Source of the DNA: Pseudomonadales bacterium
GTDB lineage: Bacteria; Pseudomonadota; Gammaproteobacteria; Pseudomonadales; Pseudohongiellaceae
Assembly: GCA_022822865.1 (NCBI GenBank)
Contig: JAJDYJ010000033.1
Coordinates: 1 to 56,976, forward strand
Reading direction: 5' to 3'
Length of the DNA stretch: 56,976 nucleotides
The notes under the pieces were generated by a model. That model was given only the letters and a program-made list of their open reading frames with translations. It was not told where the DNA came from and did no database searches. The position numbers and the translations under genes were made by a program. Positions 23,011 through 26,750 of the stretch are shown piece after piece (position 1 is the stretch's first letter; each line of letters starts with the position of its first letter).

Positions 23011-24585
23011 GTGGTCAAACCAGTAAGCAGACGTGAATTTCTCAACTTGCTCGCGGCGGCCGGGGGCGCCGGGGCGGTTGTCAAGGCGGGTGCTGCGCTC
23101 GGAATCATGCCGGCCGAAGCGGCGGCCTCGACGCTGGATCTGGCCGCCGGCAACGGCCGCAGCGCGGTCATTCTCGGCGGCGGCATTTCGGGACTCGCAA
23201 CCGCCTACGAACTCGGCAAGGCGGGATGGGATTGCACCGTCCTAGAAGCCTCCCACCGTTGCGGCGGCCGCATCTTCACGGTGCGCCATGGCACATTGAT
23301 CGACGAACTCGGCAATCGGCAGTATTGCGAGTTCGACGACGAGCCGCATATGTATTTCAACGCCGGGGCCGCGCGAATTCCCAATACCCACCGCACCTTG
23401 CTCGGCTATTGCAAGAAACTCGGCGTCGAACTCGAAATCTTCATCAACGAGAACAAGACCTGCTGGGTGCAGGACGACGCCATGCTCGGCGGCAAGCCCG
23501 TGCGCAATATCGAATACACCACTCACTTGCGCGGTTTCGTCGCCGAAATGATGGCCAAGGCCATGCACGAAACCGACATGGACGAACCGTTTACCGAGGA
23601 AGAGGCCGGAACCCTGCTGGGCATGATCCGCAGCTTCGGCGACCTGTCCGAAGACGATGTCTACCGCGGCAGCCTCAATGCCGGCTTCGATTCCGGCGGC
23701 TTTCTCAACCAGGGCGCGCAGAAAGACATCATCGCCTTCCGCGACTTGCTCAAGACGCCGTTTGCGATGAGGCTGCTGAGCACCAACGAAGGCGAAACCG
23801 GCCCCATCCTCCTGCAGCCCCGGGGCGGCATGGACCAGATCACCGAAGGATTCCTGCGCCAGGTCGGCGACCGCGTCAGTTACCGCGCCATGGTCGCATC
23901 GATCCAGGTGCGCGACGACGGCGTTGAAGTCGCCTACGACCAGGACGGCGCGCGCCGCCAGATCCGGGCCGACTATTGCTTCAACTGTATTCCGACCCAC
24001 CTCGTCACGGGCCTCGATCACAATTTCCCCGCCGACTACGTGCGTGCGCTGAAACACGTGCTTCGTGGCGAAGCCTACAAGGCCGCCTTCCAGGCGAAGG
24101 AGCGCTTCTGGGAAAAGCAGGACATTTACGGCGGCATTTCCTGGATGAACAATCGCAGCCAGCAGATCTGGTATCCCGTGGCCGGCATCCACCGGCGGAA
24201 GGGTGTCATTCTTGCGGCTTACGATTACGGCGGCGGCATGTACCACACCCGCATGACGCAACAGGAACGTGTGGAAGCGCATCTCGCCGACGGCGAGAAA
24301 GTGCATGCCAACTATCGGGACCTGGTAGAGAAACCCGCCACCGTGGGCTGGCATCGCATGAATCACATGCTCGGCTGTTCCGCGCGCTGGCGACGCAGTT
24401 TCCGCGAAGGCTGGACCGGCGAGACCGAACAACACTACCGCACGCTGCAAGCGCCGGTAAACGGCCGGCATTACATGATCGGCGACCAGATCAGCATGCG
24501 TTCGGCCTGGATGGAAAGCGCGCTGCTTTCCGCGCATTGGGCCATGGCCGATCTCGACCGCCGATTGCGGAACGCGCCGGCATGA
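23011..24585 (+). CDS. Tat-exported flavin amine oxidase/dehydrogenase
   Basis: A 524-residue FAD-dependent amine oxidase. It has a twin-arginine signal (SRREFLN, 6-12, followed by a hydrophobic stretch to about 38). The dinucleotide fold VILGGGISGLATAYE (53-67) and the second FAD motif LEASHRCGGR are followed by the substrate domain, and the C-terminal flavin segment is near YMIGDQIS. GTG 23011 is the first start giving the Tat signal. Its stop overlaps the ATG of a diheme cytochrome c by 4 bases. That arrangement resembles NicA2/CycN of nicotine-degrading Pseudomonas, where the flavoenzyme passes electrons to cytochrome c rather than oxygen. The amine substrate here is unknown. Confidence 0.9.
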   Translation: MVKPVSRREFLNLLAAAGGAGAVVKAGAALGIMPAEAAASTLDLAAGNGRSAVILGGGISGLATAYELGKAGWDCTVLEASHRCGGRIFTVRHGTLIDELGNRQYCEFDDEPHMYFNAGAARIPNTHRTLLGYCKKLGVELEIFINENKTCWVQDDAMLGGKPVRNIEYTTHLRGFVAEMMAKAMHETDMDEPFTEEEAGTLLGMIRSFGDLSEDDVYRGSLNAGFDSGGFLNQGAQKDIIAFRDLLKTPFAMRLLSTNEGETGPILLQPRGGMDQITEGFLRQVGDRVSYRAMVASIQVRDDGVEVAYDQDGARRQIRADYCFNCIPTHLVTGLDHNFPADYVRALKHVLRGEAYKAAFQAKERFWEKQDIYGGISWMNNRSQQIWYPVAGIHRRKGVILAAYDYGGGMYHTRMTQQERVEAHLADGEKVHANYRDLVEKPATVGWHRMNHMLGCSARWRRSFREGWTGETEQHYRTLQAPVNGRHYMIGDQISMRSAWMESALLSAHWAMADLDRRLRNAPA

Positions 24586-25187
24586 TTCGCCTTGCGCTAA
24601 TCTGCCTTCTGTGCATCCCCTCCCTGGCGTCGGCGGCGGAACGCGAGCCCTTCGACGATCGTTATTGCACCACCTGCCACGGGACCGACGGGCGCGGCAA
24701 CGAAGGCGTGCAGGCGCCGCGGCTCGCGGGCATGGAGCCCTGGTACCTGAAACGGCAACTCGAGAACTATCGGGACGGCATTCGCGGCGCGCATCCCGAC
24801 GATATCGAAGGCCTCGCCATGCAACCCATGGCCTCCGGGCTGACGGACGAGTCCATACAGGATATTATCGAGTGGGTAGGCGGTTGGAATTACGTTCCCG
24901 CGGAACATACGATCAGCGGTGACCTCGATGCCGGCAGGACGCTATACCAGCCCTGCGCCACCTGTCACGGCGCTGACGCCGAAGGCAACGAGGCGCTGGG
25001 AGCGCCGGCCCTGGCGGGGCAGAACGACTGGTACATGGTCACCCAACTCAGGAATTTCCTGGCCGGATACCGCGGCGTACACCCGCAGGATGTCTATGGC
25101 GCGCAGATGCGCGCAATGACCACGGGGCTGAACGGCGAGAACGATATCAATAACGTGGTCGCTTACATAAACAGCTTGTCCGACTGA
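24582..25187 (+). CDS. diheme periplasmic cytochrome c
   Basis: A 201-residue exported cytochrome with a signal peptide (1-19) and two class I heme domains, CTTCH (C29, C32, H33) and CATCH (C125, C128, H129). Each is followed by a GNEG or GNEALGAPALAGQ-type segment as in c4 cytochromes. The likely role is to accept electrons from the coupled amine oxidase and pass them to the respiratory chain. The halves look like an internal duplication. Translation is coupled to the oxidase by an ATGA overlap. Confidence 0.93.
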   Translation: MIRLALICLLCIPSLASAAEREPFDDRYCTTCHGTDGRGNEGVQAPRLAGMEPWYLKRQLENYRDGIRGAHPDDIEGLAMQPMASGLTDESIQDIIEWVGGWNYVPAEHTISGDLDAGRTLYQPCATCHGADAEGNEALGAPALAGQNDWYMVTQLRNFLAGYRGVHPQDVYGAQMRAMTTGLNGENDINNVVAYINSLSD

Positions 25188-25194
25188 TTTATTC

Positions 25195-25363
25195 TGAACA
25201 ATTCCTTCCATGGAATTGTTCATTGACGCAAAACAAAAGCGTGGTTTTGTTTTGCTCCCGGATTCAATGGCTTGCGCCATCGAATCCGACGGCACATCCA
25301 TGTGCCGCGCGGAAGCTCCGATCAATCGGAGCTTCCTTGTCAGTGGCCGGCTCAGAAGCCGGC
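25195..25363. repeat. array of six consecutive stem-loops
   Basis: Between the cytochrome and symporter genes six hairpins with unrelated stems follow one another almost without spacers. (1) 25195-25222, 11 bp, loop TTCCAT. (2) 25228-25255, 11 bp, GCAAAACAAAA/TTTTGTTTTGC. (3) 25259-25288, 12 bp with one mismatch. (4) 25290-25307, 6 bp, loop ATCCAT. (5) 25311-25336, 10 bp, GGAAGCTCCG/CGGAGCTTCC. (6) 25346-25363, 7 bp. None has the T-run of an intrinsic terminator. An in-frame reading through the array exists only because it lacks stops. Function unknown; it may stabilise, process or separate expression of the flanking genes, or be a mobile repeat. Confidence 0.9.
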
Positions 25364-25376
25364 GGGGAGAATTCGC

Positions 25377-26750
25377 ATGTCCTCCATGGCCATTTTCAAT
25401 CTCGTCATTTTCGCCGCCCTGCTGGGCTTTCTTTATCAGTTGTGGCGCCGCGGCATGGGGCTGTCGCGCCGGGTGCTGATCGGCCTGGTGATCGGCACGA
25501 TCTACGGCTTCTATCTGCAGTTCGCTTTCGGCTCGGGCACGGAAGTCGCCGGGCAGACGATCGAATGGACCAACATCGTCGCCAACGGTTATGTCAATCT
25601 GTTGCGGCTGATCATCATGCCGCTGGTGCTGGTGATGATGATCGCGGCGGTGGTCAAGGTGCAGGAGATTCGCTCGCTCGGCAAGATCGGCGGCTCGATC
25701 GTCGGACTGCTGGTCGGGACGACCGTGATCGCCGCGCTGGTCGGCATCGCCATGGCTTCGATTTTCGGTCTCAATGCCGGCGAACTCGCCGCCGGACCGG
25801 CGGAACTGGCGCGGGCCGAGGCGCTCGAATCGCGCCAGGGCACGATCGCCGACCTGTCCTTTCCGCAACTGCTGGTCAGCTTCATTTCCAGCAATATCTT
25901 CCTTGACCTCACCGGCGCGCGCAGCACTTCCATCATTGCGGTAGTAGTTTTTGGCCTGCTGATCGGCGTCGCCGCGCTGCTCGTGTGCGAGGAGAATCCG
26001 GAACAGGGCCCGCGCATCCGCGGCTTCCTCGACTCGGCCCAGGCCGTCATCATGAAGCTCGTGCACATCGTCATGGCGCTGACGCCGTATGGCGTGCTGG
26101 CGCTGATGACCCGGGTCATAGCCACGTCCGACGGCAACGCCATCGTCACCCTGATCGGTTTCGTGGTCGCTTCCTATATCGCCATTGCCATCATGTTCGT
26201 CGTTCACGCCTTCCTGATCGGGCTGATCGGCGCCAGCCTGCCGGAATACTTCCGCAAGGTCTGGCCGGTGCTGACCTTCGCGTTCGTCACCCGCAGTTCG
26301 GCCGCGACGATTCCGCTGACGATCCGCGCCCAGGTCGAGGAACTGAACGTGGCGCCTCCGGTCGCCAACATTGCCGCTTCCTTCGGCGCCACTATCGGTC
26401 AGAACGGCTGTGCCGGCATCTACCCGGCGATGCTGGCAGTGATGGTCGCGCCGACCATGGGCGTCGATATCGATTTCGGCTTCATCGCCAGCCTGTTATT
26501 GATCATCGCCATCGGCTCCTTCGGCATCGCCGGGGTCGGCGGCGGCGCCACCGCCGCGGCGCTGGTGGTATTGCCGGCCATGGGCTTTCCGGTCACCGTG
26601 GCGGCCTTGCTGATCTCCATCGAGCCGCTGATCGACATGGCGCGCACGGCGCTGAACGTCAACGGCGCCATAACCAGCGGCATGATTACCCAGCGTTTCC
26701 TCGGCGCAGAAGCCGGGGGAGCGGAAGCCGCAGCACCAACCAATCAATGA
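25377..26750 (+). CDS. dicarboxylate/amino acid:cation symporter family protein
   Basis: A 457-residue inner-membrane carrier of the DAACS (glutamate/cystine transporter) family with about eight to ten membrane segments. Features include LRLIIMPLVLVMMIAAVVKVQ (first re-entrant region), the serine-rich hairpin TRSSAATIPLTIRAQ and the C-terminal hairpin GVGGGATAAALVVLP; overall it is closest in feel to the TcyP/YdjN cystine group. ATG 25377 follows GGGGAGA at good spacing; the longer frame runs through the hairpin array. It probably imports the product of the exported enzymes around it. It overlaps the upstream M-I-E-E reading of the RidA leader by 4 bases. Confidence 0.88.
   Translation: MSSMAIFNLVIFAALLGFLYQLWRRGMGLSRRVLIGLVIGTIYGFYLQFAFGSGTEVAGQTIEWTNIVANGYVNLLRLIIMPLVLVMMIAAVVKVQEIRSLGKIGGSIVGLLVGTTVIAALVGIAMASIFGLNAGELAAGPAELARAEALESRQGTIADLSFPQLLVSFISSNIFLDLTGARSTSIIAVVVFGLLIGVAALLVCEENPEQGPRIRGFLDSAQAVIMKLVHIVMALTPYGVLALMTRVIATSDGNAIVTLIGFVVASYIAIAIMFVVHAFLIGLIGASLPEYFRKVWPVLTFAFVTRSSAATIPLTIRAQVEELNVAPPVANIAASFGATIGQNGCAGIYPAMLAVMVAPTMGVDIDFGFIASLLLIIAIGSFGIAGVGGGATAAALVVLPAMGFPVTVAALLISIEPLIDMARTALNVNGAITSGMITQRFLGAEAGGAEAAAPTNQ

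Follow-up and report, generated by a model that had tools for sequence, protein, structure and literature searches.

We analysed a window of 56,976 nucleotides (i.e., the whole stretch of DNA under study) from the genome of a Pseudomonadales bacterium, here called G000; other genomes are given as G numbers and individual loci as L numbers. The interval of interest lies between a cytochrome gene and a symporter gene, and contains the following features:

24582–25187, forward strand: di-haem cytochrome c gene (PF00034, E 4e-24; PF13442)
25187–25336, forward strand: very probably an old MITE copy of ~150 bp with a degenerate left tip and hairpins A–E (placed by BLAST to the copies of relatives and by alignment)
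25195–25205/25212–25222, forward strand: hairpin A, 11 bp, 6-nt loop
25228–25238/25245–25255, forward strand: hairpin B, 11 bp, 6-nt loop
25259–25271/25276–25288, forward strand: hairpin C, 12 of 13 positions paired (7 + 5 bp around a 1x1 mismatch), 4-nt loop
25290–25297/25300–25307, forward strand: hairpin D
25311–25322/25325–25336, forward strand: hairpin E, in which the right terminal repeat forms a palindrome (GGAAGCTCYGA / TCRGAGCTTCC)
25346–25352/25357–25363, forward strand: hairpin F, 4-nt loop, outside the element and part of the native leader of the symporter gene
25377–26750, forward strand: sodium:dicarboxylate symporter family gene (PF00375, E 6e-95), downstream of the array

All six stems that an earlier, sequence-only reading had placed at 25195–25363 are present, and the spacers between them (5, 3, 1, 3 and 9 nt, from stem A through F in order) agree with its range of 1–9 bases. 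The 6-base loops that it had counted in four stems hold for A and B as listed, and for D and E only if their innermost pairs are left uncounted. The hairpins are real: the fold of 25150–25400 had an energy of −113.1 kcal/mol, compared with −72.0 (sd 5.2) for 200 shuffles (z = −7.9), and none of the 200 shuffles was as low, which argues against a chance run of inverted repeats. We found no intrinsic-terminator or sigma-70 pattern in 25000–25500, in line with the earlier report that a T-run terminator is absent, and a search of 24900–25700 against 4227 Rfam models gave 0 matches at E ≤ 1. Reading frames that cross the array (e.g., one from TTG at 25272) are most simply explained as extensions of the symporter frame together with chance frames.

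While the six stems exist as described, they do not form a single array. Specifically, A–E make up one unit, whose conserved part starts immediately ahead of hairpin A and stops where hairpin E ends, whereas F is missing from the other copies of this unit, and the element-free relatives G077 and G036 have a GCCGGC-containing leader in its position. The element starts at the stop codon of the cytochrome gene, and the outer stem of hairpin A is the inner part (TGAAAAA type) of its left terminal repeat. The ends of the window copy were set by alignment to copies carrying a target duplication; in the window copy itself no recognisable duplication is left (flanks CTGA / TTGT).

Searching the genome for the array, as had been proposed from the sequence alone, yielded six further places in G000 (BLAST), all of them partial copies. 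Relics with a subset of the hairpins (A; A+B; A+B+E; A+E; E) were seen in L002–L007 of G000 and in L023 of G018, a pattern that looks as if whole hairpins were lost via deletion between neighbours. A search of 58 relatives produced eight matching genomes at E ≤ 0.01, G000 itself included. Five relatives had 14 to 19 matches each (14 candidates were scored per genome), mostly about 110–157 bp long and 78–94% identical; the others were either shorter or were palindromes matching themselves. Two further relatives had one weak match each (27–39 bases). With a young copy as the query, 10 of the 84 genomes of the genus matched at E ≤ 1e-6, and copies in other genomes have these five hairpins in unchanged order. 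G018 yielded 250 first-look candidates, and each of the 40 that were scored matched at 96–100% identity across 140 or more of the 157 bases, giving a copy number of 40 or more places, with the reservation that two candidates could be halves of one copy because several sit at contig ends; G094 gave 158 first-look candidates. A sample of the order comprised 293 genomes, with two candidates scored in each; G000 was the only one to match, and the element was seen in no other genus of this sample. The exact-pattern matches listed include at least Pseudomonadales or Gammaproteobacteria MAGs and uncultured Pseudohongiella, while the exact hairpin-B pattern was absent from viral contigs, and no similar DNA was found at E ≤ 0.001 in phages or in 72,556 plasmid records.

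A–E recur in 10 of 84 congeneric genomes. Together with the target duplications and empty sites described below, this bears out one suggestion of the sequence-only reading, namely that the array is a structured repeat that moves and has further copies in the genome. It had also named an assembly artefact as the finding that would undo it. Many of the copies in draft genomes do lie at contig ends, but the element is also present in the single-contig genomes G077 (3,425,201 bases) and G104 (3,537,599 bases) and at the orthologous site in G021; the closed genomes contradict an artefact, and we give next to no credence to either misassembly or a chance run of inverted repeats as the source of the array.

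To compare the same gene pair between relatives, we searched 61 genomes, of which 58 matched, and took the symporter loci of the best 30. The cytochrome gene lay upstream of the symporter gene in 23 of these 30 loci and was not found in the fetched flank in the other seven. The full array occurred at this gene pair in the window and in G021, while in G018 it ends inside hairpin B and is followed by unrelated sequence. The remaining 20 of the 23 loci lacked it, among them the nearest ones, G077 and G036, where the two genes are separated by 34 and 33 bp, respectively. The array was thus probably inserted in an ancestor of G000, G018 and G021, at the cytochrome stop codon or beside it, and was later damaged in one of the three. 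The orthologous G021 copy shows 3 stem and 6 non-stem differences and keeps its pairing, with two of the three stem differences forming one compensated pair.

One alternative is that the array is a structured RNA (e.g., an mRNA stabiliser, a processing site or an attenuator) that selection has kept in the interval between the cytochrome gene and the symporter gene. The very stable fold (z = −7.9) and the paired stems of the G021 copy are what such an RNA would show, but the same gene pair does without the array in G077 and G036, and in G018 the array is cut off. The sequence-only reading had entertained an element for RNA stability or processing that divides the operon, with the gene pair in related genomes as the check; the pair turned out to be array-free in G077 and G036, and the array cut within hairpin B in G018, the outcome that it had named as refuting. 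Such a role is not supported as the origin of the array. There is thus no support for an array dedicated to regulation at this gene pair, although a secondary effect of individual insertions on mRNA is possible.

The ends of the element point instead to transposition. They are imperfect terminal inverted repeats (GTATTCTCTGA.. / GGAAGCTCTGA..), with GTATTCTCTGAAAAA(C/T)TCC on one side and, read inwards, GGAAGCTCTGATTAAGTC on the other. By hand count on the alignment the repeats are alike at 12 of 18 positions (G.A..CTCTGA..AA.TC), the left tip GTATTC being unlike the right tip GGAAGC. In a deletion variant in G094 (L348, 1501–1600; hairpin A plus parts of D and E) the left tip is GGAAGCTC rather than GTATTCTC, and both ends are alike.

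We assessed target duplication in 77 copies for which the alignment reached both tips and 45 bases lay on each side (duplicates removed, other copies dropped). Identical 4-mers were found outside both ends in 36 of them, compared with a mean of 10.1 and a maximum of 19 in 5000 shuffled pairings, while lengths of 3 and 5 bases gave 1 duplication each. Exact duplication was found in 26 of 47 copies at ≥95% identity and in 10 of 30 below, and an earlier copy set had given 13 of 27 (shuffle mean 3.4, max 9). In the closed genomes alone, where the copies are mostly older, the count of 3 out of 14 (shuffle mean 1.2, max 5) was not significant. Some mismatched flank pairs in the drafts may reflect assembly across identical copies. 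Of the 77 copies, 40 had a YTAR 4-mer on the left and 47 had one on the right, CTAA and CTAG being the commonest 4-mers. A preference for palindromic targets was not seen, as the flanks of 27 copies showed no excess over shuffled flank pairs (7.07 vs 6.84, max 7.41). Three insertions in G018 (L044, L046, L049) lie in the middle of a palindrome, GCAGGCTCC^TAGGAGCCTGC or a near form of it, which may itself be a dispersed repeat.

YTAR is the published target of IS5 (PMC10359306), and similar ends and targets are on record for MITEPsy1 of Pseudomonas syringae pv. phaseolicola, an IS5-type element with ISPsy2-like ends that has been seen to transpose; its ends are given as GGAAGGTCTGAAAAAGCC / GTATCCTCTGAAAAAGCC and its target as CTAG or YTAA (PMC3189936). 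Compared with GTATTCTCTGAAAAA(C/T) and GGAAGCTCTGATTAAG of the present element, MITEPsy1 has GTATCCTCTGAAAAAG and GGAAGGTCTGAAAAAG, and the tips are alike at 14 of 16 and 13 of 16 positions (a hand count of the tips and not of the inner sequences). Both elements have the same tip asymmetry (GGAAG.TCTGA and GTAT.CTCTGA; PMC3189936, Table 3), and the 4-bp MITEPsy1 duplication, CTAG or YTAA, is similar to the CTAA/CTAG found here. By contrast, MITEPsy1 is 100 nt long, has six copies in its genome and, in passages of that paper on it, is described without a hairpin array. A second likeness is to an IS5 in G000 itself, whose terminal repeat GGAAGGTCTGAACAAG agrees with the right end of the element at 13 of 16 positions and abuts YTAR at 8 of 9 ends, although, unlike the MITE, it is a complete IS, encoding a transposase and with symmetrical ends.

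The element is dispersed and bounded, its 4-bp YTAR-like target is duplicated, sites empty of it exist, and its ends resemble those of MITEPsy1 and of the IS5 in G000. We are highly confident that the array in the window is an old, non-autonomous MITE copy of IS5 type, ~150 bp in length and built of imperfect terminal repeats and five tandem hairpins. An IS5-type transposase acting in trans would recognise the TCTGA-AAA core of the ends and move the element into YTAR. The MITE family is real and well-bounded, and it is of an ordinary kind but unusual inside, as it consists almost wholly of five different hairpins. Among the papers listed in our literature searches we saw none on this element or on tandem-hairpin MITEs, although one may exist in print.

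REP and BIME repeats contain one repeated stem and are not known to make a target duplication. The present element shares with them short palindromes, an intergenic location and a high copy number, but it differs in combining a 4-bp target duplication with terminal inverted repeats and in having five unrelated stems per 150-bp unit, arranged in a fixed order; moreover, no Rfam family matches it. To our knowledge, REP elements make neither target duplications with terminal inverted repeats nor units of five unrelated stems. The sequence-only reading was right to set the array apart from REP/BIME, and a repeat of this type moved by a RAYT (TnpA-REP) transposase is scarcely credible. BOX elements of Streptococcus pneumoniae are modular repeats with several parts, and the IS5-type MITE can be likened to them in its modularity, going by description and not by sequence comparison; BOX is named in PMC10969869. 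Correia/NEMIS, ERIC, RUP and similar small bacterial repeats are, like the MITE, non-autonomous, shorter than 200 bp and folded in their transcripts, and for NEMIS and ERIC an effect on mRNA cleavage is reported; according to the same article they are long stem-loops with TA termini, whereas the present element has five ordered stems and YTAR (PMC2229807).

We then looked for an autonomous partner. The sequence GGAAGGTCTGAACAAG was found at 18 places in G000, mostly 120–140 bases from a contig end. Nine such ends, of two kinds, were present among 40 contig starts taken (of 105 contigs); the two kinds look like both ends of one IS, and the 4-mer outside was CTAA, CTAG or TTAG in eight of the nine and CAAG in the ninth. 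One kind occurred 10 times, was identical over 134–137 bases and leads into a frame beginning MEQLTFAELEHDAK (read by hand). At least ten ends of this IS5 were seen in G000 (e.g., at the contig starts L368, L398 and L350), and it breaks many contigs. A PF01609 profile search of the G000 assembly found no transposase of this IS5, presumably because the repeated body of the IS was left unassembled. G094 carries a truncated relative that is 96% identical, and the first 32 residues of its frame are 58–69% (up to 68.8%) identical to annotated IS5 family transposases in plasmid records; against Pfam and NCBIfam this 32-residue start, being too short, had no match. Partial matches to the G000-type IS5 occurred in G029, G032, G036 and G089, but none was found in G018, which is rich in young copies of the MITE, nor was an intact autonomous element with exactly the two ends of the MITE found in the genomes searched.

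G021, G029 and G032 have another type of IS5 (NF033581; E 1e-76 for L081), with ends CAGGCTGC(T/G)GAAAAACC and, at three different sites, the outside 4-mers CTAG/CTAG, CTAG/TTAG and CTAG/CTAG. It carries CTGAAAAAC at the same distance from CTAG as the MITE does, but its tips differ, so we regard it as a cousin and not as the partner. The NF033581 cut-off was passed by 4 of 84 genomes, all of which carry the element, a co-occurrence that shared ancestry or close kinship may explain. Searching seven genomes for the DDE domain PF01609 returned other IS types, namely IS1380, an element of G077 with a 7–8-bp duplication, and an IS4-like protein (L070); near the PF01609 loci considered (24 of 24 and 7 of 10), the ends of the MITE were never found as the locus's own ends. 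Relics of hairpin E lie beside two PF01609 loci, L070 and L268. The G077 element, which we take to be of ISAs1 type, has eight copies (L267–L273 and L275) with a frame of ~616 residues, and the 7–8-bp duplication was seen in four of the copies examined.

To describe where copies insert, we predicted genes with a crude codon-usage gene finder. Predicted genes contained 17 of 87 copies, as against 682 of 870 random positions and, within the same loci, 101 of 299 YTAR sites (Fisher p = 0.012 for copies vs YTAR sites); under looser settings the counts were 22 of 88 for copies and 363 of 440 for random positions. Among the 70 copies outside genes, 31 lay within 8 bases of a stop codon, compared with 57 of 198 YTAR sites outside genes (p = 0.026). 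This closeness is mostly explained by the fact that TAA and TAG are part of YTAR, although a small excess remains. The many copies at stop codons, such as the one after the cytochrome gene, would thus reflect the presence of TAA/TAG within targets together with the loss of hits in genes. An intergenic position, often just past a stop codon, would also suit the structured RNA considered above; however, copies in tandem-gene intervals were equally divided between the strands, with 18 on one and 18 on the other (of 88). As the IS5-type target YTAR steers insertions to stop codons, hairpins become appended to the 3' ends of genes, where they may matter for gene expression in these bacteria.

To quantify how the hairpins evolve, we reduced 135 full copies in the fetched loci to 93 distinct cores and aligned 58 representatives at least 4 edits apart. 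Standard pairs occupied 96.9% of cells, and 17 of 53 pairs had changed on both sides, compared with a mean of 5.1 in shuffles (0 of 500 as high) and 3 to 7 in slid controls. All five stems contributed to this covariation: three pairs had changed on both sides in hairpin A (97.8% of cells paired), five in C, two in D (90.9% of cells paired) and six in E, while hairpin B was the most conserved (99.1% of cells paired), with the loop GCGTGG in 86 of 93 distinct copies.

We then followed the mode of change along a minimum spanning tree over the 93 cores, taking links with at most 4 differences as short (n = 59). These short links contained 58 stem substitutions, and in six cases a pair had changed on both sides with pairing kept (0.08 expected at random; max 2 in 2000 trials), while no double change lost its pairing. 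At most five of the six are independent, since the same exchange in hairpin C appears twice in copies 3 differences apart and is probably one event. Over links of up to 12 differences there were 19 paired double changes, compared with 0.46 expected, and two unpaired ones. Three of the six double changes (A-T to T-A, C-G to A-T) cannot be reached via a single G-U step. Single transitions in short links produced a G-U pair 16 times and a broken pair 17 times, the ratio expected if RNA pairing is not selected copy by copy. Covarying stems (17 of 53 pairs) would also suit a structured RNA, but this ratio in young copies speaks against one, and taking all of the above into account we consider an RNA held by selection between the two genes very unlikely.

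The preferred reading, an IS5-type MITE, leaves the persistence of its hairpins to be explained. Replication template switching is described as making and mending hairpins (PMC8794818), and it would account for the double changes together with the neutral single changes; we take this combination as a hint of template switching over RNA selection. Replication might slip from one arm to the other and copy changes across, so that the arms would change together and the hairpins persist. It is thus possible, and we propose it tentatively, that the arms evolve in concert by template switching, a change in one arm reaching the other in one or few events, with perfect stems that persist and covary without selection on RNA. 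Against this, loop inversion, a mark of template switching, was not present in the loop tallies (which cover the most frequent loop forms), and intermediates may have gone unsampled, as only part of the copies were examined.

Alternatively, the hairpins of the MITE may be kept by selection for transposition (e.g., through single-stranded or cruciform recognition, or through binding of a host protein), which departs from the preferred reading only in why the hairpins persist. Selection on the mobility of source copies could leave the same mark of double changes. Conservation of the A–E order and of the B loop across 93 distinct copies is consistent with this, as are the terminal-repeat core and its inverted copy held in hairpins A and E, and the lower variability of stems (58 changes in 106 columns) than of loops and spacers (61 in 39). 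On the other hand, young copies often have single stem changes (46 in 59 comparisons), and MITEPsy1, with its similar ends, moves at a length of 100 nt, no hairpin array being mentioned in passages of PMC3189936 that describe it. Selection for transposition as the keeper of the hairpins seems to us possible but less likely than not.

A structured, covarying intergenic sequence is often read as a functional RNA; that it is here a transposon warns against this inference. With the many young copies of the IS5-type MITE, the origin of compensatory changes can be tested directly. If template switching is indeed responsible, the family would be a natural experiment in which covariation, taken by itself, fails as proof of a functional RNA.

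A different palindrome, ~50 bases long and with IS5-type ends (GGAAGCTCTGAATAAG), was seen in G093 (L346, starting at 1516 on the minus strand), where the five-hairpin element was not found, and is perhaps a still smaller MITE.
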